Of a stretch of 64,000 bases of DNA, positions 2,322 through 62,938 are shown in pieces. The stretch comes from Siphonodentalium dalli. Lineage: Eukaryota; Mollusca; Scaphopoda; Gadilida; Siphonodentaliidae. The stretch spans positions 203,754,978 through 203,818,977 of the forward strand of contig CP136066.1 of assembly GCA_032622095.1 (NCBI GenBank), written 5' to 3'. The number at the start of each line of letters is the position of its first letter. Position 1 is the first letter of the stretch. Both the position numbers and the translations under genes were made by a program. A model generated the notes under the pieces. The model did not search any database. It saw only the letters and a program-made list of their open reading frames with translations, and was not told the DNA's origin.

Positions 2322-2701
2322 TTCACCCTTTACCCAACAGAACGGCCCTGTGCCAATGCATTCTCTTATATATGCGAGTCGACCATAGGTCGCCTCGCAT
2401 ATATAAGAGAATGCATTGGCTTAACACATATTAAAAATGATAAAATTGTCAAAGAATGTAGAAAAAATATTATAATTAGGCCAATGCATTCTCTTATATA
2501 TGCGAGGCGACCTATGGTCGACTCGCATATGTAAGAGAATGCATTGGCACAGGGCATAACTGTAACCATCACAATGTGGTCAACGAACCGGTTCCAATGA
2601 AATTCATATTTGTATGGTGTTATTGAGACAGACCGAAGATATTTTAGTCTGTTGAAGCTTTATTTGGGCGTTTTTGGCCGTTTTGTTGGGTAAAGGGTTA
2701 A
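2322..2701 (+). mobile_element. TTAA-C element
   Basis: Left end CCCTTTACCCAACAGAACGG follows a mutated TTCA, and the right end GTTGGGTAAAGGG runs into TTAA (2698-2701). Two copies of the core hairpin flank an AT-rich spacer. A right-hand arm of about 150 bp contains CGAAGATATTTTAG. Terminal CCC next to TTAA is what piggyBac-type ends look like. It is about 20 bp shorter than the 400-bp copies elsewhere. Confidence 0.85.
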
Positions 2702-3294
2702 ACCAAATGTCAACAGTTGGATAAAAAAAAAGCTCCATGAAATGACAAAATACTCAATGCATTGTGAGAATAAGCTTCCATATTTAAATTTTTGTGTTTT
2801 CTGCCCAAAAGTTGAGTGCGTGGTGATGAATTTGGACAACGTTGTTAATGTTCGATTGATATAGATATTTTAGGAAGTTATAAATCTCTATTCACATCAA
2901 AATTTCCTACATATAAGGAAGAAAATAGGGACAATTAAATATGAAACTCCACGGTGTCCGAGTAAACCGCAACATCAGGTGCGATTGTTTCCCGCATCGC
3001 AGTTTACAGCTGCACACATTGCATTTTACTTTATCGTTGTGAGATATATGTATGGAAAGATGGGTTTATTCGAGTTACTGCATGGATATGGATTTGGGGT
3101 GGTTAGTAACAAAACACGTAAATGAATGGTTGTCCCATACAATGCTCTATGTTTTCAAACATTTCTCAATTAGCAACAATTTTGCTGAATGAAACTAAAA
3201 TTTACTTTGAAATTCGGAATGCGCTCAGCTAAGATGATATCTACATTTATAACCTCTGAAATACTGTCACAGCATAAATAGGCATTGCCCAACA
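2702..3294. other. no supported feature
   Basis: Unique AT-rich sequence with no long reading frame and no repeat recognised. Confidence 0.5.
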
Positions 3295-3494
3295 TACAGT
3301 AATGCCCTAAATAATCGACTCCTTAACCACAAGAGAATTATGGGTAACTTTTCAGGATTTAGTCGGAAATATGGCTTGTTGCCATTCTTCGGAAAGTCCG
3401 ATGAATGGCAACAAGCCATAATTCCGACAAAATCCTGAAAAGTTACCCATAATTCTGCTGTGGTTAAGGAGTCGATTATTTAGGGCGTTACTGT
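3295..3494. mobile_element. TA-foldback element
   Basis: Complete copy from TACAGTAATGCC to GCGTTACTGTT, with the last A of the TA mutated. The hairpin centre is shortened. Confidence 0.88.
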
Positions 3495-3519
3495 TGGCTT
3501 GAGTGATCTAGTACTATTG

Positions 3520-3976
3520 TCAGGCCTGAGAATAATGTGCCTGTCATTAGCAGAATGAGGTCCCCAGAGGGTGAATTTAGTAACACTATCCAGCATAGAG
3601 GGCTAGCATCACTAAATTCACCCTCTGGTGACCCATTCAGGTTAGGCCTCATCTTCTCTGGAAAGTTTCGTTATTACCAAATTTCTATAGAAACTCCTTC
3701 AAATAGATTCTATTTCTTTTTTAGCTTAGTTTCTCTATAATCCCAAATTGGCAGATAACACATGGCATAATCGGGGTTCCAAATGGGTGTACATAACAAT
3801 ATTCATCATTTGGGAACTTCAATCTGATGTCTATGTCTCCCATAGCAGATATTCAGAATGAGGTCACAAGAGGGTGAATTTGGTGATGATATCCTGCACA
3901 GCGGGATAGCGTCACTAAATTCATCCTCTGGGGACCTCATTCTGCAAATGACAAGCACACTAAACTCTTCGGTTTC
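3520..3976. mobile_element. hAT-B element, long form
   Basis: The left end is diverged (CAGGCCTGAGAATAATGTG). Two terminal palindromes around GAATGAGGTCCCCAGAGG flank a middle that contains CATTTGGGAACTTC. The right end is weakly conserved (TCGGTTTCGG), so the boundary is approximate. Confidence 0.7.
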
Positions 3977-4211
3977 GGTACTATCGTTATCAATGTGGAG
4001 ATATATTTTGTATTTGATCGAACAAGTATAGACGGCAATATTTGTGAGCATTCTCTAAGGATTAAACGAATCTGACGATCAATAGTGATAAAGTGGCCAG
4101 TACTGCCCGCTGTGTATATCAAATCGTGAACCTGAGATGTAATACAATAGAATTACAGATTTATGAATTTTTTAGCAACATACACAAACATTCAAATACG
4201 ATGTGCATTTA

Positions 4212-4654
4212 CAAGCCTTGAAATAGTGTGTCTGACATTTGCAGAATGAGGTCCCGGATGTTGAATTTAGTGACACTACCCGCATAGTGGGCTTGCGTCA
4301 ATAAATTAACCCTCTGTGAACCTCATTCTGCTTGGGCCTCATCTTCTGGGAAGTATCTACAGCCTCAAATTAACATTGATTTCAGTTACTTTTTTTATTC
4401 TGGGAAGTTTCGATATCCCCTAATTTGCAGAAGATAAAATGCATAATCGAGGTGACTAATGGGCGAACATCACCAACTTCAACTGGGGAACTTCAATCTG
4501 ATCCTATGTCTCCCATAGCAGTTGAGGCCTAAGCAGAATAAGTCCCCCATGGGAGAATTTGGTGATGCTAGCCTGCCGTGCAGGATAGCATCACTAAATA
4601 CATCTTCTGGGGACCTCATTCTGCAAATGACAGCCACACTATTTTCAAGGCTTG
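4212..4654. mobile_element. hAT-B element, long form, with 8-bp target duplication
   Basis: Starts CAAGCCTTGAAATAGTGTG and ends TTTTCAAGGCTTG. The flanking octamers are TGCATTTA (4204-4211) and TGAATTTA (4655-4662), 7 of 8 identical. This is one of the better copies for defining the family limits. Confidence 0.87.
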
Positions 4655-4662
4655 TGAATTTA

Positions 4663-6733: not shown

Positions 6734-6761
6734 GTGAGTTCACAGTACAGATATCGATTTG

Positions 6762-7822: not shown

Positions 7823-8168
7823 TTAACCCTTTGAGGGTTAACAGCTCACGTGGTTGGCAGTTCAGCTCAGGTGGTTTCGGGTTCAACTCACGTGATTTTG
7901 GGTTCAGATCAGTGGTTTCGGACTCAGCTCAGGTGGTTTTGGGTTCAGCTCAGGTAGTTTCGGGTTCAGTTCAGGTGGTTTCGGGTTTGGCTCAGTTAAA
8001 GAATATAATAAAATATATTAAAATTGTAAAAAAAAAAAAAAATGTTAGACCAATGCATTCTCTTATATATGCGAGGCGACCTATGGTCGACTCGCATATA
8101 TAAGAGAATGCATTGGCACAGGGTATATGGGTTGATACAAAAATCGGACCTGGCACTCAAAGGGTTAA
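7823..8168 (+). mobile_element. TTAA-D element carrying minisatellite cargo
   Basis: TTAA-CCCTTTGAG (7823) begins the element and CCTGGCACTCAAAGGG-TTAA (8165-8168) ends it. The right half is standard: AT-rich spacer, one core hairpin, then GGGTTGATACAAAAATCGG. Most of the left arm is replaced by a 154-bp piece of the 21-bp minisatellite, bounded by TTAA at 7838-7841 and 7996-7999. Confidence 0.8.
7842..7995. repeat. displaced copy of the 21-bp minisatellite
   Basis: Nearly identical, including irregular units, to about 7235-7395 of the main array. Both edges are TTAA tetranucleotides. Confidence 0.85.
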
Positions 8169-8894: not shown

Positions 8895-8899
8895 TATAC

Positions 8900-13581: not shown

Positions 13582-13830
13582 CTCACCCTTTCATGATGGT
13601 AGTCGCGCTTGTGCAGCATTATATCCTGTGCCAGTGCAATTCTCTTATCTAATTATCCAAGGATCACTATGGGAGACTCTCATATCTAAGAGAATGCACT
13701 GGCTTACAAGTTCAAGGTAAATCTTGTTAGGCCAATGTATTATCTTATATATGTCTCGCATATATAAGAGAATGAATATAGCACAGGGTTTTCACTAAAT
13801 GTCAGGAAGCTCCAGTCATGGAAGGGTTAA
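13582..13830 (-). mobile_element. TTAA-E element
   Basis: Begins CCCTTTCATGATGG (TTAA mutated to CTCA) and ends AGCTCCAGTCATGGAAGGG-TTAA (13827-13830). It has two core hairpins. The first has a rearranged loop (ATCACTATGGGAGA) and the second has lost half its loop. Confidence 0.85.
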
Positions 13831-14093
13831 ACTACCCTTATGGAGCCCCTCACAGAAGTGAGCCAACGACACTCAGCAATACAAGCTGCCACCTGTATGG
13901 GGCTCCCTACAGGAAGCTCCAGTCATGGAAGGGTTAAAATACCGGCAAGAAGCTCCAGTCATGGAAGGGTTAAACTACCCTTATGGAGCCCCTCACAGAC
14001 GTGAGCAGACGACACTCAGCAATACAAGCTGCCACCTGTATGGGGCTCCCTACAGGAAGCTCCAGTCATGGAAGGGTTAAAATACCGGCAGTG
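13804..14093. repeat. tandem duplication containing the TTAA-E terminus
   Basis: A unit of about 145 bp occurs twice. The E terminus AAGCTCCAGTCATGGAAGGG-TTAA occurs four times, near 13806, 13914, 13950 and 14057. It alternates between two flanks, ACTACCCTTATGGAGCCCC and AATACCGGCA. Confidence 0.88.
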
Positions 14094-16789: not shown

Positions 16790-17189
16790 TTAACCCTTTA
16801 CCCAACAGAACGACCCTGTGCCAATGCATTCTCTTATATATGCGAGTCGACCATAGGTCGCCTCGCATATATAAGAGAATGCATTGGCTTAACACATTAA
16901 AAATTATAAAATTGTTAAAGAATGTAAGAAAAAATGGTAAAAAGTGTTAAAAAAAGATTTTGTTTAGGCCAATGCATTCTCTTATATATGCGAGGCGACC
17001 TATGGTCGACTCGCATATATAAGAGAATGCATTGGCACAGGGCATAACTGTAACCATCACAATGTGGTTAAGGAGCCGGTTCCAATGATATCCATATTTG
17101 TATGGTTCTATTGAGACAGACCGAAGATATTTTAGGCTGTTGAAGCTTTATTTGGCCGGTTTTGGCCGGTTTGTTGGGTTAAGGGTTAA
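16790..17189 (+). mobile_element. TTAA-C element, 400 bp
   Basis: TTAA at 16790 and 17186. Intact ends CCCTTTACCCAACAGAACG and GGTTTGTTGGGTTAAGGG. Two core hairpins with the GACC/GGTC loop are separated by TTAAAGAATGTAAGAAAAAA-type spacer. Confidence 0.92.
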
Positions 17190-19742: not shown

Positions 19743-19966
19743 TTAACACTTTCAGTGCCAAGTCCGATTTTTGTATCAACCCATATTTCCTCGATCATTT
19801 TTCAAATTTATTGATTATAATAATGTGATACATTACATTATTATAATCTTAGAGCTCTTAAAGCTCTTTCCATCAATGTAACACATTATTATAATCAATA
19901 AATTTGAAAAATGATCAAGGAAATATGGGTTGATACAAAAATCGGACTTGGCACTGAAAGGGTTAA
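19743..19966. mobile_element. TTAA-D palindromic variant without the core
   Basis: TTAA at 19743 and 19963. The two D ends, CAGTGCCAAGTCCGATTTTT and complement, are followed by a different internal inverted repeat (ATTTTTCAAATTTATTGATT and complement). The whole 224 bp is close to one palindrome. Confidence 0.85.
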
Positions 19967-20238: not shown

Positions 20239-20391
20239 TTAACCCTTCCATGACTGGAGCTTCCTGAAATTTTGTGAAAACCCTGTGCCAATATCTCAGT
20301 GAGAGCTTTCCAATGAATGGCAACAAGCCATATTTCCGACTAAATCCTGAAAAATTACCCATAATTGTCGATTATTTAGGGCATTACTGTA
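20239..20391. mobile_element. TTAA-E left end fused to a TA-foldback right half
   Basis: TTAACCCTTCCATGACTGG to CCCTGTGCCAATA (20239-20283) is joined to CTCAGTGAGAGCTTTCC and the right arm to GCATTACTGTA. CTGCTGTGGTTAAGGA is deleted from the arm. Confidence 0.75.
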
Positions 20392-20788
20392 CATCATTAT
20401 TACATTATCCTACCCTTATTCTATTCAATAAACCCATTCTATAAATTGTGATATTAAACATTCGTTTAATAACAGGAAATAGTGACAGGTGACCTTTGAC
20501 TTCCGGTTTGTCGTCTGTTTACATTCCGTAGGCCACGTCTCAAAATACTATGGCTTCCAATAGTTTTCCAACAAACAATAATGAATGAAGAGTTTGAAAA
20601 GATATGTCATTAAATATACACCATTAAATATGACAAAGCGTCTTTATTTATCTGTGACTATTTCATTACACGAGCAAACAATGCATAGCTACATGAAAAC
20701 GTCATCACATGCCTTATAGAAGCCAATGTTAGTTTCGCGTCCCATTTTGTTATTTAGATATGCTTTGTCGAGGTTTTGAATCATGTAA
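20392..20788. other. no supported feature
   Basis: Unique AT-rich sequence with no reading frame of note. Confidence 0.5.
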
Positions 20789-22255: not shown

Positions 22256-22436
22256 TTATCTCAAATAGTTTCCCCTTTATTCTTCGTCTACCGTGGCCAT
22301 TCCATAGTCCATAGCGCCAATCAATTTCTGGACGGAGCAATTAATTGTCCCCATGTCTGATGGACTTCCTATCGTAACTACAGATGCTGTTTGTCTGGTC
22401 TGACTATTTAATCTCTCATGGAATATCTATTATATC

Positions 22437-22836
22437 TAAACCCTTTACCCAAAAAAAACGGCCAAAACCGGCCAAATAAAGCTTCAACAGCCTAAAATAT
22501 CTTCGGTCTGTCTCAATAGAACCATACAAATATGGATATCATTGGAACCGGCTCCTTGACCACATTGTGATAGTTACAGTTATGCCCTGTGCCAATGCAT
22601 TCTCTTATATATGCGAGTCGACCATAGGTCGCCTTGCATATATAAGAGAATGCATTGGCCTAAAAAAATCTTTTTTTAACACTTTTTACCATTTTTTCTT
22701 ACATTCGTTAACAATTTTATAATTTTTAATGTGTTAAGCCAATGCATTCTCTTATATATGCGAGGCGACCTATGGTCGACTCGCATATATAAGAGAATGC
22801 ATTGGCACATGGCCCTTCTGTTGGGTAAAGGGTTAA
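22437..22836 (-). mobile_element. TTAA-C element, 400 bp
   Basis: Reverse orientation, starting CCCTTTACCC next to a degraded TAAA and ending GTTGGGTAAAGGG-TTAA (22833-22836). Both core hairpins are intact apart from one change in the first (CCTTGCATATA). Confidence 0.9.
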
Positions 22837-24053: not shown

Positions 24054-24317
24054 TTAACCCATCTATGACGGGTGCTTCTTGAAATTTTGCGAAAACCCTG
24101 TGCCAATGTATTCTCTTATATGCGAGTCTCCCATAGGGAGCTTCACATATATAAGAGAATGCATTGGCCTAACAATATTTACCTTGACCTTGTAAGCCAG
24201 TGCAATATTCTCTTATATATGTGAGGCTCCTGATGGGAGACTCGCATATATAAGAGAATACACTGGCACAGGATCATTAATGCAGCAACAGCGCAGCTCC
24301 CATCATGAAAGGATTAA
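24054..24317 (+). mobile_element. TTAA-E element beside the receptor exon
   Basis: TTAA at 24054 and 24314. Left end CCCATCTATGACGGGTGC, two core hairpins with CTCCC/GGGAG-type loops, spacer TATTTACCTTGACCTTGTAA, right end CAGCTCCCATCATGAAAGG. It ends 55 bp before the splice acceptor of the receptor exon. Confidence 0.88.
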
Positions 24318-24336
24318 GTGGGAGTCAATAAATCAA

Positions 24337-24373
24337 GTCCTTTTGTTTCATGTATTTTTTATTATTTTTCCAG
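24337..24373 (+). promoter_or_regulatory. probable 3' splice site before the receptor start codon
   Basis: A pyrimidine-rich run ends TTATTTTTCCAG, with AG at 24372-24373, 30 nt before the ATG. This suggests a separate 5' untranslated exon upstream and an intron containing the E element. Confidence 0.6.
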
Positions 24374-24403
24374 GTTGGCTGAGTCAGCATTTACACTGCA
24401 GTC

Positions 24404-25688: not shown

Positions 25689-25893
25689 TTAACCCTTTCA
25701 TGACAGGAGCTGCGGCTGGTGCAGCTTTAAAATTCATGTGCCAGTGCATTCTCTTATATATGCGAGTATCCCACTGGGGGCCTCACATATATAAGAGAAT
25801 GAATATTGTTAGGCCAATGTATTTTCTTATAAGCGAGACTTGCATATACATGTATAAGAGAATGCATTGAATCTCCAGTCATGGAAGGGTTAA
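25689..25893 (-). mobile_element. TTAA-E element downstream of the receptor
   Basis: TTAA at 25689 and 25890, in the opposite orientation to the copy at 24054. The first hairpin is intact with a shifted loop (ATCCCACTGGGGG). The second has lost its loop and the AGGAAG part of the right end. It starts 140 bp after the receptor stop codon, so it probably lies in the 3' untranslated region. Confidence 0.82.
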
Positions 25894-27364: not shown

Positions 27365-27764
27365 TTAACCCTTTACCCAACAAACCGGCCAAAACCGGCC
27401 AAATAAAGCTTCAACAGCCTAAAATATCTTCGGTCTGTCTCAATAGAACCATACAAATATGGATATCATTGGAACCGGCTCCTTGACCACATTGTGATAG
27501 TTACAGTTATACCCTGTGCCAATGCATTCTCTTATATATGCGAGTCGACCATAGGTCGCCTCGCATATATAAGAGAATGCATTGGCCTAAAAAAAATCTT
27601 TTTTTAACACTTTTTACCATTTTTTCTTACATTCTTTAACAATTTTATAATTTTTAATGTGTTAAGCCAATGTATTCTCTTATATATGCGAGGCGACCTA
27701 TGGTCGACTCGCATATATAAGAGAATGCATTGGCACAGGGCCGTTCTGTTGGGTAAAGGGTTAA
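27365..27764 (-). mobile_element. TTAA-C element, 400 bp
   Basis: TTAA at 27365 and 27761. Right-hand arm first (CCAACAAACCGGCC), then two intact core hairpins, ending CCGTTCTGTTGGGTAAAGGG. Confidence 0.93.
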
Positions 27765-41488: not shown

Positions 41489-41573
41489 GAGAGCTTTCCG
41501 ATGAATAGCAACAACAACAAGCCATATTTCCGACTAAATCCTGAAAAGTTACCCATAATTCTGCTGTGGTTAA
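41489..41573. mobile_element. TA-foldback right half interrupted by TTAA-C
   Basis: GAGAGCTTTCCGATGAATAG to CTGCTGTGG-TTAA. The arm stops at the TTAA where a C element begins. A CAA triplet is expanded (GCAACAACAACAAGCC). Confidence 0.8.
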
Positions 41574-41705
41574 CCCTTTACCCAACAGAACGGCCCTGTG
41601 CCAATGCATTCTCTTATATATGCGAGTCGACCATAGGTCGCCTCGCATATATAAGAGAATGCATTGGCTTAATACATTTTTTTTAGGCCAATGCATTCTC
41701 TTATA
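41570..41705 (+). mobile_element. TTAA-C element, right part lost
   Basis: TTAACCCTTTACCCAACAGA, one complete core hairpin, a shortened spacer and the first third of the second hairpin. It is inserted at the TTAA of the TA-foldback arm. Confidence 0.85.
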
Positions 41706-41815
41706 TAATATGTCTCCGTAGAAAAGCTATTCATGTTGTACACTTCACTCTCACTAAAATATCCCCCGCACGAGACAGGCATCTTGTAGCCTTGTTCCAT
41801 CAGACATAACCACTA

Positions 41816-43266: not shown

Positions 43267-43666
43267 TTAACCCTTTACCCAACAGAAGGGCCCTGTGCCA
43301 ATGCATTCTCTTATATATGCGAGTCGACCATAGGTCGCCTCGCATATATAAGAGAATGCATTGGCTTAACACATTAAACATTATAAAATTGTTAAAGAAT
43401 GTAAGAAAAAATGGTAAAAAGTGTTTAAAAAAGATTTTTTTTAGGCCAATGCATTCTCTTATATATGCGAGGCGACCTATGGTCGACTCGCATATATAAG
43501 AGAATGCATTGGCACAGGGCATAACTGTAACTATCACAATGTGGTCAAGGAGTCGGTTCCAATGATATCCATATTTGTATGGTTCTATTGAGACAGACCG
43601 AAGATATTTTAGGCTATTGAAGCTTTATTTGGCCGGTTTTGGCCGGTTTGTTGGGTAAAGGGTTAA
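43267..43666 (+). mobile_element. TTAA-C element, 400 bp
   Basis: TTAA at 43267 and 43663. All parts intact and nearly identical to the copy at 16790. The first hairpin is preceded by GGGCCCTG rather than CGGCCCTG. Confidence 0.94.
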
Positions 43667-44393: not shown

Positions 44394-44639
44394 TTAACAC
44401 TTTGAGTGCCAGGTCGATTTTTGTATCAACCCATATACCCTGTGCCAATGCATTCTCTTATATATGCGAGTCGACCATAGGTCGCCTCGCATATATAAGA
44501 GAATGCATTGGCCTAACATTTTTTTTTCTTATTTTTTTCAATTTTTTACAATTTTAATAATTTATTCTTATATTCTTTAACAGACTTATTTTGTAGGTTT
44601 AGGGCCGATGAGATCGAGCCCTGGCACTCAAAGGGTTAA
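44394..44639 (-). mobile_element. TTAA-D element, short form
   Basis: TTAA at 44394 and 44636. CACTTTGAGTGCCAGG, GATTTTTGTATCAACCC, one core hairpin, T-rich spacer, CTTTAACAGACTTATTTTG, and GCCCTGGCACTCAAAGGG. The interior TTAA of the family is uninterrupted here. Confidence 0.9.
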
Positions 44640-45013
44640 AGAAATACAGAAACTATCTCCGTATCCGTGCAGAGATATATGGTATAGATATGGAAATCAA
44701 CTCCCCATAACAGTGCATAGGTGTGGTAGATTGTCAAACTAAAACCACTGATATATGCACCAGACAAAACACTTCCCATATAAGATTGGCTGTGACAAAC
44801 TTGTCTGGAGTCAGCATGCTATATAAAGGCAAATTATTCAATTTATTAGGACAAATATTTATAGATATTCACAAGTTATTTATTAACTACTGTCAAATAT
44901 AGAGAACATGGAAAAAAATGAACCCCAGTGTATTAATTCTACTTTTATTAACCATTTCATGATGGGAGCTGCGCTGGTACAGCATTAAAGACATGTGCCA
45001 GTGCATTCTGTTA

Positions 45014-45127
45014 TACACACTGAGAGCTTTCCGATGAATGGCAACAAGCCATATTTCCGACTAAATCCTGAAAAATTACCCATAATTTGGCTGTGGTAAG
45101 AAGTCGATAATTTAGGGCATTACTGTA
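45014..45127. mobile_element. TA-foldback right half inside TTAA-E
   Basis: Lies between CATTCTGTTA-TA and TA-TGCGAG, i.e. at a TA of the core stem. It starts CACACTGAGAGCTTTCC and ends GCATTACTG. Confidence 0.85.
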
Positions 45128-45139
45128 TGCGAGTCACCC

Positions 45140-45905
45140 ATAGGGAGTTTCACATATATAAGATAATTCACTGGCTTACAATGTCATGGTAAATATTGTT
45201 AGGCCAATTTATTCACTTATATATGCAAGGCTCCCTATGGGAGACTCGCATATATAAGAGAATTCACTGGCTTACAATGTCATGGTAAATATTGTTAGGC
45301 CAATTTATTCTCTTATATATGCAAGGCTCCCTATGGGAGACTCGCATATATAAGAGAATTCACTGGCTTGCAATGTCATGGTAAATATTGTTAGGTCAAT
45401 TTATTCTCTTATATATGCAAGGCTCCCTATGGGAGACTCGCATATATAAGAGAATTCACTGGCTTACAATGTCATGGTAAATATTGTTATGCCAATTTAT
45501 TCTCTTATATATGCAAGGCTCCCTATGGGAGACTCGCATATATAAGAGAATTCACTGGCTTGCAATGTCATGGTAAATATTGTTAGGCCAATTTATTCTC
45601 TTATATATGCAAGGCTCCCTATGGGAGACCCGCATATATAAGAGAATTCACTGGCTTGCAATGTCATGGTAAATATTGTTAGGCCAATTTATTCTCTTAT
45701 ATATGCAAGGCTCCCTATGGGAGACTCGCATATATAAGAGAATTCACTGGCTTGCAATGTCATGGTAAATATTGTTAGGCCAATTTATTCTCTTATATAT
45801 GCAAGGCTCCCTATGGGAGACTCGCATATATAAGAGAATTCACTGGCTTGCAATGTCATGGTAAATATTGTTAGGCCAATGTATCCTCTTATATATGGGA
45901 GACTC
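45140..45905. repeat. 96-bp tandem array of core hairpins, about eight units
   Basis: GCAAGGCTCCCTATGGGAG starts at 45225, 45321, 45417, 45513, 45609, 45705 and 45801, exactly 96 bp apart. Each unit is one core hairpin plus the E spacer (TGTCATGGTAAATATTGTTA). The units differ at only a few sites, so the expansion is recent. Confidence 0.96.
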
Positions 45906-46019
45906 GCATATATGAGGATGAATTGGCACAGGGTTTTTGCAAAATTTCAGGAAGCTCCAGTCATGGAAGGGTTAAACAATTCTGATGACAGGCAGACGCA
46001 CATCATTATGATTCCCATA

Positions 46020-48167
46020 TTAACCCTTTCTTTACTGAATGGATTCTCCCATTCTTCATTTGGAGGGATGTTAAGGATATATGAGTAGACGACAGCCAGA
46101 CAAAATGACAATACAAGCGTAGAAGAATTCTATGGGAAATGTTTAGATTATAAATAAGTTCAACACACTTATTATCGGAACATTTCCTAAGGAAACTACC
46201 AGTCAATGAGAATTTATTAACTACTAGTCAATGAGAATTTATTAACTACTAGTCTATGAGAATTTATTAACTACTAGTCAATGAGAATTTATTAACTACT
46301 AGTCTATGAGAATTTATTAACTACTAGTCAATGAGAATTTATTAACTACTAGTCAATGAGAATTTATTAACTACCAGTCAATGAGAATTTATTAACTACT
46401 AGTCAATGAGAATTTATTAACTACTAGTCTATGAGAATTTATTAACTACTAGTCAATGAGAATTTATTAACTACTAGTCTATGAGAATTTATTAACTACT
46501 AGTCAATGAGAATTTATTAACTACTAGTCTATGAGAATTTATTAACTACTAGTCAATGAGAATTTATTAACTACTAGTCTATGAGAATTATTAACTACTA
46601 GTCTATGAGAATTTATTAACTACTAGTCAATGAGAATTTATTAACTACTAGTCAATGAGAATTTATTAACTACTAGTCTATGAGAATTTATTAACTACTA
46701 GTCAATGAGAATTTATTAACTACTAGTCTATGAGAATTTATTAACTACTAGTCAATGAGAATTTATTAACTACTAGTCTATGAGAATTTATTAACTACTA
46801 GTCTATGAGAATTTATTAACTACTAGTCAATGAGAATTTATTAACTACTAGTCTATGAGAATTTATTAACTACTAGTCAATGAGAATTTATTAACTACTA
46901 GTCTATGAGAATTTATTAACTACTAGTCTATGAGAATTTATTAACTACTAGTCAATGAGAATTTATTAACTACTAGTCAATGAGAATTTATTAACTACTA
47001 GTCAATGAGAATTTATTAACTACTAGTCAATGAGAAATTATTAACTACTAGTCAATGAGAATTTATTAACTACTAGTCAGTGAGAATTTATTAACTACTA
47101 GTCAATGAGAATTTATTAACTACTAGTCAATGAGAATTTATTAACTACTAGTCAATGAGAATTTATTAACTACTAGTCAATGAGAATTTATTAACTACTA
47201 GTCAATGAGAATTTATTAACTACTAGTCAATAAGAATTTATTAACTACTAGTCAATGAGAAATTATTAACTACTAGTCAATGAGAAATTATTAAATACCA
47301 GTCAATGAGAATTTATTAACTACTAGTCAATGAGAAATTATTAACTACTAGTCAATGAGAATTTATTAACTACTAGTCAATGAGAATTTATTAACTACCA
47401 GTCAATGAGAAATTATTAACTACCAGTCAATGAGAATTTATTAACTACCAGTCAATGAGAATTTATTAACTACCAGTCAATGAGAATTTATTAACTACTA
47501 GTCAATGAGAATTTATGAGAATTTATTAACTACCAGTCAATGAGAATTTATTAACTACTAGTCAATGAGAATTTATTAACTACCAGTCAATGAGAATTTA
47601 TTAACTACCAGTCAATGAGAATTTATTAACTACCAGTCAATGAGAATTTATTAACTACCAGTCAATGAGAATTTATTAACTACTAGTCAATGAGAATTTA
47701 TTAACTACCAGTCAATGAGAATTTATTAACTACTAGTCAATGAGAATTTATTAACTACTAGTCAATGAGAATTTATTAACTACTAGTCAATGAGAATTTA
47801 TTAACTACCAGTCAATGAGAATTTATTAACTACTAGTCAATGAGAAATTATTAACTACCAGTCAATGAGAATTTATTAACTACCAGTCAATGAGAATTTA
47901 TTAACTACTAGTCAATGAGAATTGATTAACTACCAGTCAATGAGAATTTATTAACTACTAGTCAATGAGAATTTATTAACTACTAGTCAATGAGAATTTA
48001 TTAACTACTAGTCAATGAGAATTTATTAACTACCAGTCAATGAGAATTTATTAACTACTAGTCAATGAGTATTTATTAACTACCAGTCAATGAGAATTTA
48101 TTAACTACTAGTCAATGAGAATTTATTAACTACTAGTCAATGAGTATTTAGTAAAGAAAGGGTTTAA
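46020..48167 (+). mobile_element. TTAA-G element enlarged by a 25-bp array
   Basis: TTAA at 46020 and 48164. The left part is typical: CCCTTTCTTTACTGAATGGA, TTTGGAGGGATGTTAAGG, GACGACAGCCAGAC, GGGAAATGTTTAGATTATAA and complement. The right end AGTATTTAGTAAAGAAAGGG is also typical. The unit just before that end has been amplified to about 1.95 kb. Confidence 0.88.
46195..48150. repeat. 25-bp tandem array, about 78 copies
   Basis: Unit ACTACTAGTCAATGAGAATT plus TATTA. Variants TAGTCTA, CCAGTCAA and GAGAAATTA are clustered by region. Frequent in-frame stops (TAA) exclude coding. Confidence 0.97.
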
Positions 48168-48656
48168 CCCTTTCAGTGCCAGGGGCCAATCTCATCGGCC
48201 CTAATTTACGGTCTGTAAAATCGTCCCTAAATTTTTTTTTGAAATTTAATTTTTTTTTTTTTTTTTATAGATTTTTTGGGTTAAATTTTGTTTGGGTAAG
48301 CTTAAGCATGCTATAGCGAATTTAAAAACAAACTGAATAAAACCTTAGGGGCATGTTATAACTCAAAACTATCACCAAGTATTCATAGTAATAATTTTGA
48401 TGCCCAGGTAAAACGTAAGATTCCCTGGCACTAAACCTACAAAATAAGTCTGTTAAAGGATTATATCCTCATGAAACAACAAAACTCTATCGGAAAGCCA
48501 CAATGATCCAAGTCCCATAAAAATCGCGTAATAAATAAGCCGAGAAATAAATAAATAATACCACCACCGGTTGTCGGATATCTCCGTCGCAAAACCTCGC
48601 ATGACGTCAAGCGAGGTAAACTAATTAAAAACAGGGAATCTGAGTCGGAGTTAATT

Positions 48657-48884
48657 ATGTCTACCTATATGGCGATGGAAAATCCGGAATCGACATCAGC
48701 GCTGAGTGTAATGGAATTACTGCGGGGCATATCAATAGCATTGTGTACACATGGTGAATTGTCATCGCGCAGTGAGTTATCTTCACTTGTGATTTGTCTT
48801 AAGTGCTGTTTGGAAAGTTACGGTATTGTTTTGACAAAAAATATGGAGGGACGATTGAGCGGGGTAGATAACACTTTCGTATAA
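48657..48884 (+). CDS. unidentified 75-codon frame in the TTAA insert
   Basis: Starts MSTYMAMENPESTSAL, continues with a leucine- and cysteine-containing middle (SLVICLKCCLESYG) and ends GVDNTFV. No low complexity. No domain recognised, no known homologue and no supporting splice sites. It may be a real small protein, an exon piece or chance. Confidence 0.3.
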   Translation: MSTYMAMENPESTSALSVMELLRGISIALCTHGELSSRSELSSLVICLKCCLESYGIVLTKNMEGRLSGVDNTFV

Positions 48885-48909
48885 AGCTTATAAAAACACG
48901 AGCCGGCAT

Positions 48910-49143
48910 GTGAACTTTATTCGGGTGCGTGTTCGCGATGTTGTTTTACTTTTCCGTATATATGCCCCGAGTGTCCCGTATTTACAATCATTCATTCATT
49001 CTAGTGACTCTCAGTTAGGCATATGCTGTATTCATTTCCAAACGATGTTCGTTTACGTGATATTTGGCGGGATTTCTGTGGGAAACCCGTTGAGCAAAAT
49101 CAGAAACCGATTACATATACCAAATAAAGAGCGTTTAATTTGA
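48910..49143 (+). CDS. unidentified 77-codon frame in the TTAA insert
   Basis: MNFIRVRVRDVVLLFRIYAP and MFVYVIFGGISVGN give it hydrophobic stretches. It follows the frame at 48657 by 25 bp. A TATAAAA lies between them (about 48890). No domain recognised. Confidence 0.2.
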   Translation: MNFIRVRVRDVVLLFRIYAPSVPYLQSFIHSSDSQLGICCIHFQTMFVYVIFGGISVGNPLSKIRNRLHIPNKERLI

Positions 49144-49507
49144 CGAGTCAGTCATGGTTACGAATACATACAATTGCAGTTAAAGTGGGGAGTATGTTGA
49201 TGAATAATTCACGATGACAACTATTCTAAGTCGATTCCCCATTTCCTTCACCATGGCTCAATAAAGAGCGTTCCACGTTAAGAGTTTTCCTAATATGGTA
49301 CGAATAAAAAGAGTTTAATAAAGCGGAAATTGCTATGACAATGATGGAAGGATATATAAAGCATGCATATCGGAAGTTCATGTACATGTATTGACCTGTA
49401 TTGTTGTAATCAGCAAACAATCACTAGAACAACTGTTCTAAGTCGAGTCCCTTTACCTTGATGCAATAAAGAGCGTTCACTATTACGATATATTGCGAAT
49501 AAAGAGC
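49123..49507. repeat. AATAAAGAGCG motif cluster within a diverged duplication
   Basis: AATAAAGAGCG occurs at 49123, 49260 and 49465, with a variant (AATAAAGAGCA) at 49498 and an inverted copy CGCTCTTTATT at 49959. The second and third lie in a unit of about 205 bp that begins ACTATTCTAAGTCGA/ACTGTTCTAAGTCGA. Confidence 0.65.
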
Positions 49508-50375
49508 ACTTGAATATGTGATTCCATATTAAACCGGATTATTATCCCTCCTTCAAAAGGTGTTATATATGATTGGATGTTTAAACGAACCACGGCGAAC
49601 ATTTATATATTTTATAACCCTATTGTTATGCGTAATTGACACATAGAGGTCGATTTATGACCTGGATATTCAATAGACCGCATTGCTAGAGTGCTAATTT
49701 TATAGGCCAATAACCATGCATAGATGCAGTGAATTTCCATCAGTGACAGTCGGCTAGATTGTTATGGGGTGGGGGAAGCAATATTCCGAAATATATATAA
49801 ACACCATATTGCCCAAATATATACATGATTCATAACCAAGGAAAAATGAACTTATCATATCATATTGGCAATGAATGAATTGATTATAATTGATTAAATC
49901 CGACAGCAATAAACCAATTTTGTGTTGTTTTACCGCGTTACGATAAATTAAAACGAAACGCTCTTTATTGACACACGACTAATGGCATCTGGAAATTGGA
50001 ATGTTTACGAGATGATAATTGCCTAATAACTGAGCAAGTCTTCGCGTATATATGCAATCTTGATATGCATATATAATATAACTTGGACTATTCCGGTGAC
50101 GAAAAAATATATATAAACAAGAGCACGCGTTTATATAGATAAATGCGCGCAAAACTGAATAATATACGGGCATGGCTTTATAGTAACAACACATCGCGAT
50201 ACATATAATAATAGTAATAATAACACGATAAAGACATTTAATTACGAGAAAGGCGATGTTTTCGGCGAAGTTTTGCATTTGCAGTGTGATAACGCGACAT
50301 CTTAAAAGGCCGCGATCGACTACATGCAAACTTAAAATACCGCCGTCGCGTATCTATGCGTTGTCAATGAGTTAC

Positions 50376-50445
50376 CACGTGATCGATCACGTGCTATGCT
50401 TCTGTTTACATGTGACAATCACGTGATCGGGCTGATGATCACGTG
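50376..50445. promoter_or_regulatory. cluster of four CACGTG sites
   Basis: CACGTG at 50376, 50388, 50420 and 50440, each directly next to GATC. The first two form the perfect 18-bp palindrome CACGTGATCGATCACGTG. CACGTG is the classic E-box bound by bHLH factors. Binding here is inferred from the motif only. Confidence 0.55.
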
Positions 50446-50777
50446 ACTTCGTCTACAACAAAATCTTCGGCTAACTTCGGATTTTTTTTTAATCGTTATA
50501 AAAATAACGATTGGCGGCCGAATATTAGATTATATGCGCCCAATGGACATTTTATATATATATTATCGGTATATTGAAAGAAAATAATATTGTTTTTTCA
50601 GGACCGTATTCCTTTAAAGATTATAAGAAAAAATTAATTAAAATTGTAAAAAATTGTAAAAAATAACAAATGATGAAAAATTGTTAGGCCAATACATTCT
50701 CTTATATATGCGAGGCGACCTATGGCACAGGGTATATGGGTTGATACAAAAATCGGACCTGGCACTGAAAGGGTTAA

Positions 50778-51235
50778 ATAATTCTGAAGAATCGTAGATG
50801 CCTGAAGTTATGACGCACATATTAAGGATAATATTTTGCAAATAATGGACCAAATTTCAGCTCACTCCACAAGACAGTATGAAGAGTGTCACAGGGTTCA
50901 ATACAATTATATTAATCAGCCAGTCATTGCATGCATTCTGTCAGTAGAACATGCAATGCACATAGATCTTTCACAGGACGTGAAATTATAGCATGTGTGT
51001 TGTTCGGCATCTGACACTTCTATAGGCCCAGAGATGCATCAAACACGTCACTGATTGCTTATAATTACACCAAAGAAACTCTATTTTCATCCGATTCGCA
51101 ATATGTGTAGAAAATTTATTGGTAGAATTTGACAATGACCGAGCGAAAGTTAAGAGAATAAACACACTTCAATTGCTACTTGTGACATGCATACGAAAGA
51201 ATCTTATAATTAAAATTATCACACTTAAAGGGACA
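50778..51235. other. no supported feature
   Basis: Unique sequence between two mobile elements. Confidence 0.5.
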
Positions 51236-52080: not shown

Positions 52081-52330
52081 TTAACCCTTTGAGTGCCAGG
52101 GGCCGATCTGATCATTCCTAAACCTACACAATAAGTCTGTTAAAGAATATAAGAATAAATTATTAAAATTGTAAAAAATTGTAAAAAAAAACAAAAACAA
52201 AAAATTGTTAGGCCAATGCATTCTCTTATATATGCGAGGCGACCTATGGTCGACTCGCATATATAAGAGAATGCATTGGCACAGGGTATATGGGTTGATA
52301 CAAAAATCGACCTGGCACTCAAAGGGTTAA
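52081..52330 (+). mobile_element. TTAA-D element, short form
   Basis: TTAA at 52081 and 52327. CCCTTTGAGTGCCAGGGGCC, CCTACACAATAAGTCTG-TTAA-AGAATATAAG, an intact core, GGGTTGATACAAAAATCG, CACTCAAAGGG. It shows the uninterrupted interior TTAA site. Confidence 0.92.
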
Positions 52331-52809: not shown

Positions 52810-53250
52810 GTTTAATGTTCATAATGCTAGCACGGCCAGACTCACAAGAGGCGTCAACAGTATCATCTTCATTACCCAACTTGATATTTATTTATTCCCT
52901 AATATGGAAGCAGGTTAATGTACCTGTGATGGCATTGTCAACAGAACAAGCCTTTCTATGACTGGAGCTTCCTGAAATTTTGGCGAAAAACCCTGTACCA
53001 ATGCACTCTTTTATATTTGCGAGAGAATGCATTGGCCTAAAAATATTTACCTTGACTTTACCTATGGGAGACTTGCAAATATAAGAGAATGCACTGGCAC
53101 AGGATCTTTAATGCTGCACCAGTGCACTCCTGTCATCAAAGGGTTAATGTTCACATGGTGAATGCTAGCATGGCCAAACTCACAAGAGGCGTCAACAATA
53201 TCAACTTCATAACCCAACTATATATATATTTATTCCCTTTTATATGGATA
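52810..53250. repeat. duplicated flank around a TTAA-E element
   Basis: ACTCACAAGAGGCGTCAACA with surrounding GCTAGCAC/ATGGCCA and TACCCAAC/TATTTATTCCC occurs at 52827-52905 and 53163-53240. The E element lies between the copies. Confidence 0.75.
52946..53147 (+). mobile_element. TTAA-E element
   Basis: The left end is degraded (GCCTTTCTATGACTGGAGC) and the right end GTCATCAAAGGG-TTAA (53144-53147) is intact. The loop of the first hairpin and half of the second are deleted. Confidence 0.78.
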
Positions 53251-53687: not shown

Positions 53688-53967
53688 ATTTCAGTGCCAA
53701 GTCCGATTTTTGTATCAACCCATATACCCTGTGCCAATGCATTCTCTTATATATGCGAGTCGACCATAGGTCGCCTCGCATATATAAGAGAATGCATTGG
53801 CCTAAAAAAATTCTTTTTACCATTTTTTCTTACATTCTTTAACAATTTTATAATTTTTAATGTGTTAAGCCAATGCATTCTCTTATATATGCGAGGCGAC
53901 CTATGGTCGACTCGCATATATAAGAGAATGCATTGGCACAGGGACGTTCTGTTGGGTAAAGGGTTAA
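53688..53967 (-). mobile_element. chimeric element: D left terminus, C right terminus
   Basis: Left: TTTCAGTGCCAAGTCCG, TTGTATCAACCCATATA (D). Right: ACGTTCTGTTGGGTAAAGGG-TTAA (C). In between are two core hairpins separated by the C-type spacer. The switch falls in or next to the first hairpin, which both families share. Confidence 0.88.
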
Positions 53968-57483: not shown

Positions 57484-57953
57484 TTAACCCTTTCAGTGCC
57501 AGGTCCGATTTTTGTATCAACCCATATACCCTGTGCCAATGCATTCTCTTATATATGCGAGTCGACCATAGGTCGCCTCGCATATATAAGAGAATGCATT
57601 GACCTAACAATTTTTCATCATTTGTTATTATTTTTTACAATTTTTTACAATTTTAATAATTTTTTCTTATATTCTTTAACAGACTTATTTTGTAGGTTTA
57701 GTGCCAGGGAATCTTACGTTTTTCATGGGCATCAAAATTATTACTATGAATACTTGGTGATAGTTTTAACATGCCCCTAAGGTTTTATCCAGTTTGTTTT
57801 TAAATTCGCTATAGCATGCTTAAGCATACCCAAAACAAATTCAACCAAAAAAAAACAAAAACAAAAAAAACTTTACTTCTTTTTTTTTAGGGCCGATTTT
57901 ACATACCGTAAATTAGGGCCGATGAGATCGGCCCCTGGCACTGAAAGGGTTAA
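57484..57953 (-). mobile_element. TTAA-D element, long form
   Basis: TTAA at 57484 and 57950. CCCTTTCAGTGCCAGGTCCG, core, CTTTAACAGACTTATTTTG (uninterrupted interior TTAA), CATGCCCCTAAGGTTTTATC, GATGAGATCGGCCCCTGG, CACTGAAAGGG. 470 bp. Its right TTAA is the left TTAA of the following E element. Confidence 0.92.
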
Positions 57954-58243
57954 CCGTTCCATGACTGGAGTTTCAGGAAATTTTGCAAAAACAATGTGCC
58001 AATACATTCTCCTATATATATATCAATGTATTAAAGAGAATGTTTAGCTTGACCTTGTAAGCCAGTAAATTCTTTTATAAATGTTAGCCTCGCATATATA
58101 AGAGAATACATTGTCCTAACAATATTTAACATGATTTGACCTTGTAAGTCAGTGCATTCCCTATGGGAGACTCGCATATATAAGAGAATTCACTGGCACA
58201 TGATCTTTAATGCTGCACCAGCGCAGCTCCAGTCATGAAAGGG
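57950..58243 (+). mobile_element. TTAA-E element
   Basis: TTAACCGTTCCATGACTGGA to CCAGTCATGAAAGGG. The last TTAA is lost (GATA). It contains three remnants of core hairpins rather than two. Confidence 0.8.
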
Positions 58244-58337: not shown

Positions 58338-58795
58338 TTAACCCTTTCAGTGCCAGGGGCCGATCTCATCGGCCCTAATTTACGGTCTGTAAAATCGACC
58401 CTAAAAAAATTATAAAAAAAAATTTGGTTTGAATTTGTTTTGGGTATGCTTAAGCATGCTATAGCGAATTTAAAAACAAACTGGATAAAACCTTAGGGGC
58501 ATGTTATAACTCAAAACCATCACCAAGTATTCATAGTAATAATTTTGATGCCCATGAAAAACGTAAGATTCCCTGGCACTAAACCTACAAATTAAGTCTG
58601 TTAAAGATTATAAGAAAAATTATTAAAATTGTAAAAAATTGTAAAAAATAATAACAAATGATGAAAAATTGTTAGGCCAATGCATTCTCTTATATATGCG
58701 AGGCGACCTATGGTCGACTCGCATATATAAGAGAATGCATTGGCACAGGGTATATGGGTTGATACAAAAATCGGACCTGGCACTGAAAGAGTTAT
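58338..58795 (+). mobile_element. TTAA-D element, long form
   Basis: TTAACCCTTTCAGTGCCAGG to CACTGAAAGAG-TTAT, 458 bp. Contains CCTACAAATTAAGTCTG-TTAA-AGATTATAAG. This shows the empty interior site that is occupied in the element at 48164. Confidence 0.92.
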
Positions 58796-59206: not shown

Positions 59207-59350
59207 CCCTTTCTTTACTAAATGAATTCTTCCATCCAGTTAACTAACCCTTCCATGACTGGAGCTTCCTGATGAAATTTTCCGAAAATCTTGTGCCAAT
59301 GCATTCTCTTATATATGCGAGGCTCCCTATGAGAGACTCACATATAAACA
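59207..59350 (+). mobile_element. TTAA-G end fragment and truncated TTAA-E
   Basis: CCCTTTCTTTACTAAATGAA and TTCTTCCATCCAGTTAA (G, 59207-59243) precede CTAACCCTTCCATGACTGGA and one core hairpin with the CTCCC/GAGAG loop. The E element stops after CACATATAA. Confidence 0.7.
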
Positions 59351-59691: not shown

Positions 59692-59969
59692 ATAACTCTT
59701 TCAGTGCCAGGGGCCGATCTTATCGGCCCTAATTTACGGTCTGTAGAGTGCCAGGGCTGATAAAAATCTGGCACTGAAAGAGTTAAAGAATATAAGAAAA
59801 AATTATTTAAATTGTAAAAAAATAATAACAAATGATGAAAATTTGTTAGGCCAATGCATTCTCTTATATATGCGAGGCGACTTATGGTCGACTCGCATAT
59901 ATAAGAGAATGCATTGGCACAGGTTATATGGGTTGATACAAAAATCGGACTTGGCACTGAAAGGGTTAA
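59692..59969 (+). mobile_element. TTAA-D element with a second D terminus at the interior TTAA
   Basis: ATAA-CTCTTTCAGTGCCAGG to CACTGAAAGGG-TTAA (59966-59969). At the interior site, AAAAATCTGGCACTGAAAGA and G-TTAA (59783-59786) precede AGAATATAAG. This is a right-hand D terminus nested in the left arm. Confidence 0.85.
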
Positions 59970-60541: not shown

Positions 60542-60706
60542 ATATAAGGATTAACTGTCATGTGGACTATTTTTATGGAGATGTAACCGTGAGGTAAGTG
60601 GTCATAACTTGTATGTAAAACCCTTCGTGTTTTACACAAGTTATGTCCACTTACCTCACGGTTACATCTCCATAAAACCAGTCCACATGACAGTTAATCC
60701 TTATAT
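60542..60706. repeat. 165-bp near-perfect hairpin
   Basis: Arms of about 80 bp (ATATAAGGATTAACTGTCAT, GGAGATGTAACCGTGAGGTA and complements) meet at CCTTCG. Few mismatches, so it is young or kept intact. No family in this window matches it. Confidence 0.92.
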
Positions 60707-60753
60707 ATTGTTCATAGATCACTCTCCACAATGGAGGCATTAAAGATATTTAT

Positions 60754-60944
60754 GTTAAAGAATGTAAGAAAAATTGTTAAAGAATGTAAGAAAAAATTAT
60801 AAAAAAATTATAAAAATTGTTAAAGAATGTAAGAAAAATTTATCAAAAATTGTCAGGCCAATGCATTCTCTTATATATAAGAGAATGCATTGGCACAGGG
60901 TCTTTAATGTTGCACCAGCGCAGCTCCCATCATGAAAGGGTTAA
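60754..60944 (+). mobile_element. chimeric element: C-type spacer, loopless core, E terminus
   Basis: GTTAAAGAATGTAAGAAAAA is repeated three times. Next comes a core without its loop (CTCTTATATATAAGAG), then CCAGCGCAGCTCCCATCATG and AAAGGG-TTAA (60941-60944). Confidence 0.82.
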
Positions 60945-60988
60945 CTTCAGAAGGTACCTTGATTTTATAAGGCACCTCAAGATCAATA

Positions 60989-61297
60989 TTAAAGGTACTC
61001 AATCAGATTAGACGCTCATGATTACTATTTCTTTGGCTTCATGGTAAAAAATATTTGATTCGAGTCGAGGATCGATGAACCCACCCATCAAAACTCTGAG
61101 TTATCAGATATCGATTTTTGAAGTTTGTTATTTCTCGAAATGTGTAATAATATGTGGCCAAGAAACACATGGTCAAATTGAGGGTTTCGGACAAACTTGC
61201 AAATGAAAATGGATAACTCTAAAATCAAGTGGCAATACGCTCAAATTTCGTGATACTTTAGTGATAATATTTTGTTGATCGGATTGAGTACCTTTAA
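60989..61297. mobile_element. TTAA-I element, complete
   Basis: TTAA at 60989 and 61294. AAGGTACTCAATCAGATTAG pairs with ATCGGATTGAGTACCT. The interior has GAGTTATCAGATATCGATTT and GGATAACTCTAAAATCAA. It shares the right TTAA with the next element. Confidence 0.82.
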
Positions 61298-61571
61298 CCT
61301 CTTCGCTGCTATGACGTCCGTATCTATTACGGACGTAAAAGTGCACGCCGTGTGCTATATGGTCCGTAGAGATTAGTGCATCGGAATAACTGTATCTCGA
61401 CGTTTCAAACAGTGTATGATGTTCCACGATTGTGAACAATAATAGCCTTTCAGCTGAGTCACTTTTATGGTTCTTTTGACATTCCCGCTATATTTTCCCA
61501 TTGGAAAATGCCAATAACGTCAACAGCCCAGCACACGACGTCATAACGTCATTTAGCAGCGAAGAGGTTAA
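61294..61571. mobile_element. TTAA-F element, complete
   Basis: TTAA at 61294 and 61568. CCTCTTCGCTGCTATGACGT pairs with ACGTCATTTAGCAGCGAAGAG, i.e. long inverted ends, with a further ACGTCCGTA/ATTACGGACGT pair inside. Confidence 0.87.
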
Positions 61572-62089
61572 GTATAGTCTAGCAGAAGGCATTTACTGAC
61601 AAATACAAACGATAAATATGCACACCATTAAAATCTTCATATCAGTAGTGAGCTATCTGTGCTCGTAAATCCTACAACACTCCATACCAGTTTTTTTGAG
61701 CGCAACAGCTTTTGAAATCATGACTAGCATAACAATATATTGTCGTATCGATTTAGATATTAGAAAATCACATTTTTCAACTTGACAACAAGAAATCAAA
61801 GTTTCATACTCTCAATTATTTAGTCCTGAAGAAACTAAAGTTAATCAAAATTTAGTGCTCTTTTTATTGTTGCAAAGGAAATGAATTAGCATTCCATCAA
61901 CATTGTGCCTGCAAACTTCAATATTCGTTTATCTGATGCGACATAGAATTATTGAAGTACATCATGCATTCCTATCAAATAAGTTCATACAGTCAATTCC
62001 AATTAACTAGTAAATGTACTAGTAAACACCATAAAGGAGAGATTTAATCCAGCTATTTATTAAACTTGACCCATTGACGAGTTTAATTT
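61572..62089. other. no supported feature
   Basis: Unique AT-rich sequence. Confidence 0.5.
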
Positions 62090-62370
62090 TATCTTACATT
62101 CTATAACAAATTTTATCATTTTGTCTTATATTCTATTACAATTTTATCATTTTTTTATCATTTTTTCTTACATTTTTTAACAATTGTTTAACATTTAAAA
62201 AACAATTTCTTACAGTTTTTTTAACAATTATAAAAAATAGTAAAAAATTTGTTAGCCCAATGCATTCTCTTATATATGTGAGGTGACCTATGGTTGACTC
62301 GCATATATAAGAGAATGCATTGGCAGAGTTTTTGCATAATTTCGAGAAGCTCCAGTCATGGAAGTGTTAA
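62090..62370 (-). mobile_element. chimeric element: C/D-type spacer and core, E terminus
   Basis: Repeated TTTTATCATTTT/CTTACATTTTTTAACAAT spacer, a core with the GACC/GGTT loop typical of C and D, then GAAGCTCCAGTCATGGAAG and TTAA (62367-62370), which is the E terminus. The TTAA also begins the next element. Confidence 0.8.
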
Positions 62371-62581
62371 CCCTTTCCTTACTAAATACTCATTGACGAG
62401 TAGTTCCTTTAGCAAATGTTCAGATAATAAGTTCCACAAAAGTAGGGCATTTGTTGAATTTAATTATCATTTCACATCAAAGTATAGGAATCTTTCTGCA
62501 CCTACCTGTATTTCATAAACACCCCTCCAAATGAATAATAGACTGTTCCAATGTATACTTTTATAACTGAGTGGGGGAAAT
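62367..62581 (-). mobile_element. TTAA-G element, right end removed
   Basis: TTAACCCTTTCCTTACTAAA, TACTCATTGACGAGTAGTTC, CAAATGTTCAGATAATAAG, CACCCCTCCAAATGAAT. It stops at GGGGGAAATCC where E sequence begins. Confidence 0.78.
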
Positions 62582-62938
62582 CCTTGACCTACATGTAGTA
62601 AGCCAGTGCATTCTCTTATATATGCGAGGCTTTCTATGGGAGACTCGCATATATACAGTAATGCTCTAATTAATCGACTCCTTAACCACAGCAGATTTAT
62701 AGTTAATTTTTCAGGATTTAGTTGGAAATATGGCTTGTTGCCATAATAATCGGAAAGCTCTCAGTGAGAGCTTTCTTATTAATGGCAATAAGCCATATCT
62801 TTCCAACTAAATCCTGAAAAATTACCCATAATTATGTTGTGGTTAAGGAGTCGATTATTTAGAGCATTACTGTAAGAGAATGCAATGGCACAGGATCTTT
62901 AATGCTGCACCAGCACAGCTCCCTTCATGAAGGGTTAA
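62582..62938 (+). mobile_element. TTAA-E element, left part lost, with nested TA-foldback
   Basis: Spacer TTGACCTACATGTAGTAAG, second core hairpin interrupted at TA by a foldback element, then CTGCACCAGCACAGCTCCC and TTAA (62935-62938). Confidence 0.83.
62654..62874. mobile_element. TA-foldback element inside a core hairpin
   Basis: The core reads CGCATATA-TA, element, TA-AGAGAATGC. Removing the element and one TA restores CGCATATATAAGAGAATGC. The arms are slightly longer at the tip (CATAATAATCGG). This is the cleanest proof of the TA target duplication. Confidence 0.93.

Follow-up and report, generated by a model that had tools for sequence, protein, structure and literature searches.

Investigation of a 64,000-nucleotide stretch of the genome of the scaphopod mollusc Siphonodentalium dalli (assembly GCA_032622095.1, contig CP136066.1, positions 203,754,978 to 203,818,977 of the forward strand; hereafter the window) revealed one 67-bp hairpin core combined with the ends of three families of short elements bounded by TTAA, designated C, D and E. 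Passage of this core between element ends by recombination probably fits the observations better than descent by divergence, and the three families are, on balance, best regarded as piggyBac-type miniature inverted-repeat transposable elements (MITEs) that swapped ends through the shared palindromic core. The DNA of the window has a GC content of 37% and is repeat-rich and animal-like.

The core comprises CCCTGTG on the outer side, a 67-bp near-perfect palindrome and, usually, CCTAAC or CTTAAC on the inner side. Matches to its 20-base hairpin arm number 86 in the window at up to three mismatches (0.02 expected from shuffles), and a search with a 26-base arm at up to seven mismatches detected 92 arms, 66 of which pair into 33 complete palindromes. 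When four hairpin copies were folded as single-stranded DNA, z-scores of -7.3 to -15.6 against shuffles were obtained, the fold of 67 nt having 31 base pairs, one mismatch and a 3-nt loop. The presence of the same hairpin in C, D and E, as proposed in a first-pass annotation of this DNA, was borne out by its detection with the ends of all three families. That annotation had also set each hairpin between CCCTGTG and CACAGGG, which proved incorrect: each hairpin has CCCTGTG on its outer side alone, and in C and E the CCCTGTG...CACAGGG frame holds a pair of inverted hairpins. The copies catalogued in the window are as follows.

2322-2701, plus strand: C element, the most diverged C copy, with hairpins at 2353-2419 and 2481-2547 (inverted); left TTAA now TTCA
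16790-17189, plus strand: C element of 400 bp with TTAA on both sides and hairpins at 16821-16887 and 16969-17035
22432-22836, minus strand: C element with hairpins at 22592-22658 and 22739-22805; one TTAA decayed
27365-27764, minus strand: C element with TTAA on both sides
41570-41707, plus strand: C-short end and hairpin, cut off within the second hairpin
43267-43666, plus strand: C element with TTAA on both sides
53689-53967, minus strand: chimera of a D outer end (no tip, no TTAA), CCCTGTG and hairpin, C inner region, hairpin and C-short end with TTAA
7995-8168, minus strand: D end with a single hairpin at 8050-8116, shortened beside a 21-bp tandem repeat
44394-44639, plus strand: D element of 246 bp with one hairpin at 44445-44511
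52081-52330, minus strand: D element with one hairpin at 52213-52279
57484-57953, plus strand: D element of 470 bp with one hairpin at 57536-57602
58338-58790, minus strand: D element with one hairpin at 58677-58743; one TTAA now TTAT
59692-59969, minus strand: D element with one hairpin at 59851-59917; one TTAA now ATAA
48164-50777, minus strand: D element interrupted by a 2.15-kb insert; one hairpin arm is largely lost, between CCA direct repeats
19743-19966, strand undefined: hairpin-free element with a D-left end at either side; here the 40-bp end module accompanies a different palindromic core
24054-24317, plus strand: E element bearing both end types (E-left, E-right) and two hairpins of TCCC type
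25689-25893, minus strand: E element with TTAA on both sides
44948-45975, minus strand: E element enclosing tandemly repeated hairpin units (96-bp array, 45153-45897, 7.8 copies)
33969-34206, plus strand: E element; left TTAA now CTAA
38122-38281, plus strand: E-left end with an intermediate hairpin centre (ACCC/GGGT), truncated
52950-53147, plus strand: E element with damaged hairpins (left edge approximate)
57950-58243, plus strand: E element that meets a neighbouring D element at one TTAA; TTAA on the right decayed
62080-62370, minus strand: discordant copy with an E-left end, a C/D-type hairpin at 62257-62323 and an AT-rich inner region (inner edge approximate)
60753-60944, minus strand: mixed copy with an E-right end, a hairpin at 60858-60893 lacking its centre and a C/D-type AT-rich inner region (inner edge approximate)
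59247-59343, plus strand: E-left end and truncated hairpin, its centre in the opposite orientation

A full C element is about 400 bp long and consists of a short end, a hairpin, an AT-rich spacer, an inverted hairpin and a 150-bp long end; the C-short end measures 27 bp from tip to hairpin, and at the C-long end the hairpin begins 150 bp in. In D elements the single hairpin lies 48 bp behind the left tip, and the hairpin-free right end bears a short palindrome of its own, GGGCCGAT-ATCGGCCC. In E elements the two hairpins are diverged, and a similar tip is followed by two different subterminal sequences; the distance from tip to hairpin is about 27 bp at C-short ends and 45-48 bp in D and E. 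As both C and E have two different subterminal sequences, the core meets five outer sequences, not three. Twelve of the 13 measured elements span 205-470 bp and one spans 1028 bp. TTAA was present on both ends in 10 of 13 checked elements, which were picked for recognisable ends on both sides and include the hairpin-free element at 19743, and one TTAA is decayed in the C copies at 2322 and 22432 and the D copy at 58338.

Regarding the tips, the consensus ends of C, D and E all have TTAA followed by CCCTTT or CCCTTC, with deviations in single copies at 44394 (CACTTT) and 44948 (CCATTT). The C-type tip occurs 11 times in the window at up to three mismatches, and when the 591 TTAA sites were read both ways, 56 matches to TTAA+CCCTTT were found at up to one mismatch, compared with a mean of 5.4 and a maximum of 11 in 20 first-order Markov simulations, not all of the 56 being element ends, as three lie inside C spacers and some come from other TTAA families. 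The available parts of two earlier reports give CC[C/T]T as the piggyBac-type tip motif (PMC2872659) and CCCTT as the most conserved motif of the piggyBac terminal inverted repeats (TIRs) (PMC10813416). The present elements combine TTAA at both ends with a CC[C/T]T tip, as do MITEs of the piggyBac (TTAA) superfamily, and the TTAA-CCCTTT/C tips are the hallmark of that superfamily, which leaves the ends unrelated only behind the tip. In consensus strings made by eye, the subterminal sequences behind the six-base tip and before CCCTGTG gave 12 cross-family alignments of C, D and E, all 12 no better than dinucleotide shuffles (p 0.18-1.0), whereas ends within one family do align (E-left with E-right, D with D-right, C-short with C-long; p 0-0.012). 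The earlier description of the termini as unrelated therefore holds behind the tip and fails at the tip itself, which is common to all three families. The AT-rich inner regions of C and D also align (score 62 against a mean of 41 in 500 shuffles, p 0.002).

Joints between core and ends were located by a scan anchored on CCCTGTG and the first arm (up to six mismatches), which returned 42 places, 37 with one of the five outer sequences (C-short 7, C-long 5, D 7, E-left 8, E-right 10) and five without a known outer sequence that look like chance. Likeness between the outer sequences ends at CCCTGTG, a common junction that is partly built in by the anchoring at this motif, which is exact in 23 of the 37 joints; truncated or gapped joints seen by eye at 13830, 20239 and 50777 were missed by the scan. 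The hairpin centre reads GACC-ATA-GGTC in C and D and mostly TCCC-ATA-GGGA in E. All 19 C/D joints have the GACC centre, while the 18 E joints comprise 10 of TCCC type (including one at 38164 that reads ACCC and bears the TCCC label as a fallback), one of GACC type and seven without a readable centre.

There are accordingly two core lineages, with GACC and TCCC centres, at a mean distance of 0.10-0.20. Distances and tree were computed from all 33 paired palindromes and that at 24197-24266 (34 rows), with 25 unpaired arms excluded. Among these 34 hairpins, 14 are identical, nine with C outer ends and five with D outer ends (one of the five being the chimera), and mean core distances are 0.006-0.010 between C and D, 0.009 within D, 0.004-0.012 within C and 0.10-0.20 from C or D to E.

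Discordant and chimeric copies are seen directly. The copy at 62257 has an E-left end and a GACC-type core that grouped with the C/D cores at 95/98 support; its AT-rich spacer is related to those of C and D, and it has substitutions of its own in end and core. At 60944 an E-right end is found with a C/D-type spacer, the hairpin centre being deleted and the core type unreadable, and at 53689-53967 a D outer end continues through the core into a C body. The 40-bp D-left end flanks the hairpin-free element at 19743-19966 on both sides, and E-left tips are found on another core within 13826-14083. From these ends on other cores, together with the discordant copies, it follows that modules were combined in more than one way. 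The preference of the first-pass annotation for cassette exchange over divergence is thus sustained in part: C and D cores are indistinguishable, and the copy at 62257, the D-C chimera and the D end on another core agree with it, but core type otherwise follows end family. The sequence at 13806-14090 is a 143-bp tandem duplication, the units of which join an E-left tip to another core.

In C and D copies the hairpin is several-fold less variable than the remainder of the element. In five of the seven aligned C copies it differs at 3/670 sites compared with 34/1267 elsewhere (Fisher test, p 3e-4), and in six of the 11 aligned D rows at 2/402 sites compared with 7/285 in the outer end (Fisher test, p 0.04), gap columns having been removed. 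The hairpin also bears signs of instability, with an arm lost between CCA repeats (near 50713), a centre lost (60858), a centre inverted (59289) and the 96-bp array of 7.8 copies (44948-45975). Regarding changes in the stem, 16 cells in eight E copies were changed on both sides and still paired, 36 were changed on one side and two were changed on both sides and unpaired; the corresponding counts were 14, 24 and 7 in seven array units and 0, 4 and 0 in 19 C/D copies. The hairpin centre remains paired in both core lineages. Of the 16 paired E changes, 13 are at two neighbouring centre pairs and probably inherited, which makes the paired changes weak evidence for selection on the fold. The hairpin is proposed here as a candidate transposase-bound subterminal palindrome or recombination seed.

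Regarding the direction and mechanism of exchange, we infer that C, D and E would be non-autonomous TTAA MITEs moved by transposases encoded elsewhere. The exchanged module would comprise CCCTGTG, the 67-bp palindrome, CCTAAC and, in C and D, the AT-rich spacer, and would have been joined to five outer sequences of three end families via recombination or template switching between copies. E copies would be older because they are diverged, and C and D copies younger because they are near-identical; the likely order would therefore place the module first on E ends, next in its GACC form with an E end (62257 and perhaps 60944), and last in its spread with C and D ends. The long palindrome may both seed recombination and be kept for helping transposition; for the latter, the model is the subterminal palindromes to which piggyBac and piggyBat transposases bind.

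Several points weigh against exchange of the core between ends. With the exception of 62257, every readable core centre matches its end family, and the chimera at 53689 may be a local deletion joining neighbouring elements, since its D end is without tip and TTAA. In the core tree, with 67 columns and 18 distinct rows, a single branch is well supported and the bootstrap was still unsettled, and the C/D cores are too alike for the tree to give the number or direction of exchanges, so that one or two events would suffice. When the old C copy at 2322 is left out, the C contrast becomes 2/536 against 16/1031 (p 0.044), with p 0.11 when only the long outer end is compared, and the Fisher tests count shared subfamily (inherited) changes as independent. 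A Pfam scan of 100 of the 166 open reading frames (ORFs) of at least 64 aa outside the three tandem arrays gave no hits and no transposase, and the evidence comes from one 64-kb window only.

A further-reaching reading, which we hold only tentatively, sees the palindromic core as an independent lineage persisting beyond its carriers: a hyperparasitic module that would outlast the death of one transposase system by gaining new ends recognised by another, with the hairpin as recombination site, and would be homogenised across families.

It is possible, if rather unlikely, that the core was once a TTAA MITE with the tip CCCTGTGCC that became nested in several unrelated host MITEs, the composites being spread by the host ends. 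All five outer sequences end at CCCTGTG, which itself conforms to the piggyBac tip motif CC[C/T]T, and the CCCTGTG-hairpin-spacer-hairpin-CACAGGG arrangement of C and E is an inverted-repeat unit in its own right; the CMITE-IN of corals, as described in the available part of PMC2872659, is a precedent. TTAA stands directly before CCCTGTG in none of the 37 joints, but lies within eight bases before it in nine of the 10 E-right joints, typically as TTAAAGA, and this proximity strengthens the nesting explanation and slightly weakens that of exchange. Nesting stays a rival because the C, D and E-left joints have no TTAA within eight bases before CCCTGTG; further, no TTAACCCTGTGCC tip is found among the 56 TTAA+CCCTTT matches, and D holds half a unit. 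Nesting, if true, would predict TTAA-CCCTGTGCCAATG elements, or C or E hosts that carry no hairpin and keep TTAA whole at the junction.

That assembly errors or local deletions between neighbouring elements produced the discordant copies, with the sharing of cores by C and D reflecting a single old fusion, seems improbable. Near-identical palindromes are hard to assemble, the D tip of the chimera at 53689 has no TTAA and the tree cannot resolve the C/D cores; however, the copy at 62257 has its own substitutions in end and core and is therefore not a simple collapse, and one core on C and D ends still needs at least one fusion. Conservation of the hairpin as a small-RNA precursor, with the exchange of ends incidental, is similarly doubtful. 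MITE-derived microRNAs are known, the length and fold of the hairpin fit a microRNA precursor and the stem centre stays paired across the two core lineages, but the hairpin had no Rfam match at the gathering score, more than a third of the E joints (the seven noted above) are without a readable centre and the common outer CCCTGTG would be left unexplained. A tRNA search found none. Plain descent, in which the C, D and E ends would be diverged forms of one ancestral end with a slower core, agrees with the CCCTTT/C common to the consensus tips and with the lower variation of the hairpin within families, but is very hard to maintain, as 14 C/D cores are identical while the ends align no better than shuffles, the copies at 62257 and 53689-53967 are discordant, and cores could hardly be so alike after drift of the ends because the hairpin is only several-fold less variable, when a far larger ratio would be needed.

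The exchange of ends around a common core can be compared with known systems. In Acropora, the available part of PMC2872659 describes the CMITEs as TTAA elements of piggyBac type whose families differ in their TIRs and share a conserved internal region; in one copy the internal region is discordant, and tandem arrays occur. CMITEs are about 100 bp long and homogeneous in size, with an internal region of 75 bp that is not described there as a palindrome. Set side by side by description, the elements in the window are alike in their TTAA, CC[C/T]T tips, different TIRs with one conserved internal region, discordant copy and tandem arrays, and the left tip of CMITE family VI, CCCTTTCACTGCCA, is one base off that of D, CCCTTTCAGTGCCA. 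They differ in size, at 205-470 bp (one 1028 bp) against about 100 bp, and in having as core a 67-bp palindrome, often present twice and inverted, in place of the 75-bp region.

Similarly, in Galileo of Drosophila mojavensis, according to the available part of PMC3573991, one central region occurs with the TIRs of three subfamilies and chimeric copies have the ends of two subfamilies, which is attributed to ectopic recombination and gene conversion. The window likewise has one central region with several kinds of ends, whereas Galileo belongs to the P superfamily, with 7-bp target duplications in place of the TTAA target found here, and has TIRs of about 300 bp to 1.2 kb in related subfamilies, in contrast to short piggyBac-type ends that do not align across families. 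Subterminal palindromes are described for the ends of piggyBac (19 bp) and piggyBat (imperfect) in the available part of PMC11707139; C, D and E resemble these in TTAA, short tip and a subterminal palindrome, here about 27 bp (C-short) to 45-48 bp (D, E) in, but the 67-bp palindrome is far longer, starts only 150 bp from the tip of the C-long end and is missing from the D right end. Module sharing between end families is thus already described in corals and fruit flies, and the present case differs in the long, often doubled palindrome, the five outer sequences from three non-aligning families and the larger size.

Exact core patterns had no match in viral and prokaryotic contig collections, nor did one C element in a plasmid collection, and such collections say little about animal DNA. 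Five of six motif strings were without any paper in the literature, and the sixth, a 14-mer, was listed for 13 papers with unrelated titles.

Regarding neighbouring features, the E element at 24054 stops upstream of an ORF for a G-protein-coupled receptor, with less than 100 bp left before the first ATG (region 24054-25549). This ORF is uninterrupted, rhodopsin-family and neuropeptide-receptor-like, and is the sole clear gene in the window; among solved structures the receptor is closest to prolactin-releasing-peptide and neuropeptide Y receptors. A TTAA element at 46020-48167 holds a 25-bp satellite (46194-48154, about 2 kb), the second tandem array inside a TTAA element, and the satellite unit resembles the subterminal motif TCATTGACGAGTAGTT, found singly at 33718, 36532 and 62390. 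The 2.15-kb insert within the D element, at 48458-50612, has TTAA on both sides as read by eye, weakly similar tips (AGGATTATATCC and AGGAATACGGTCC), repeated AATAAAGAGCG and no Pfam transposase; a six-frame Pfam scan of the whole 2.6-kb D copy (48164-50780) found no transposase and one weak, sub-cut-off SMN_Tudor match. A MITE starting with CAGTAATGC is found in or beside hairpins at 62650-62870 (in stem TATA at 62650), 45000-45135 and 20290-20400, and the repeat listing has a 137-nt piece of this family in 18 copies. A further TTAA element, with the different tip TTAACCTCTTCGCTGC, is present at 61307-61571.

How non-autonomous elements escape the extinction of their transposases is an open question, and a near-unchanged core with five end sequences in 64 kb offers a small natural example from which the time and breakpoints of end-switching might be worked out. 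Because the hairpin varies less than the rest of the same copies, selection on the core can be tested genome-wide against gene conversion through the palindrome.

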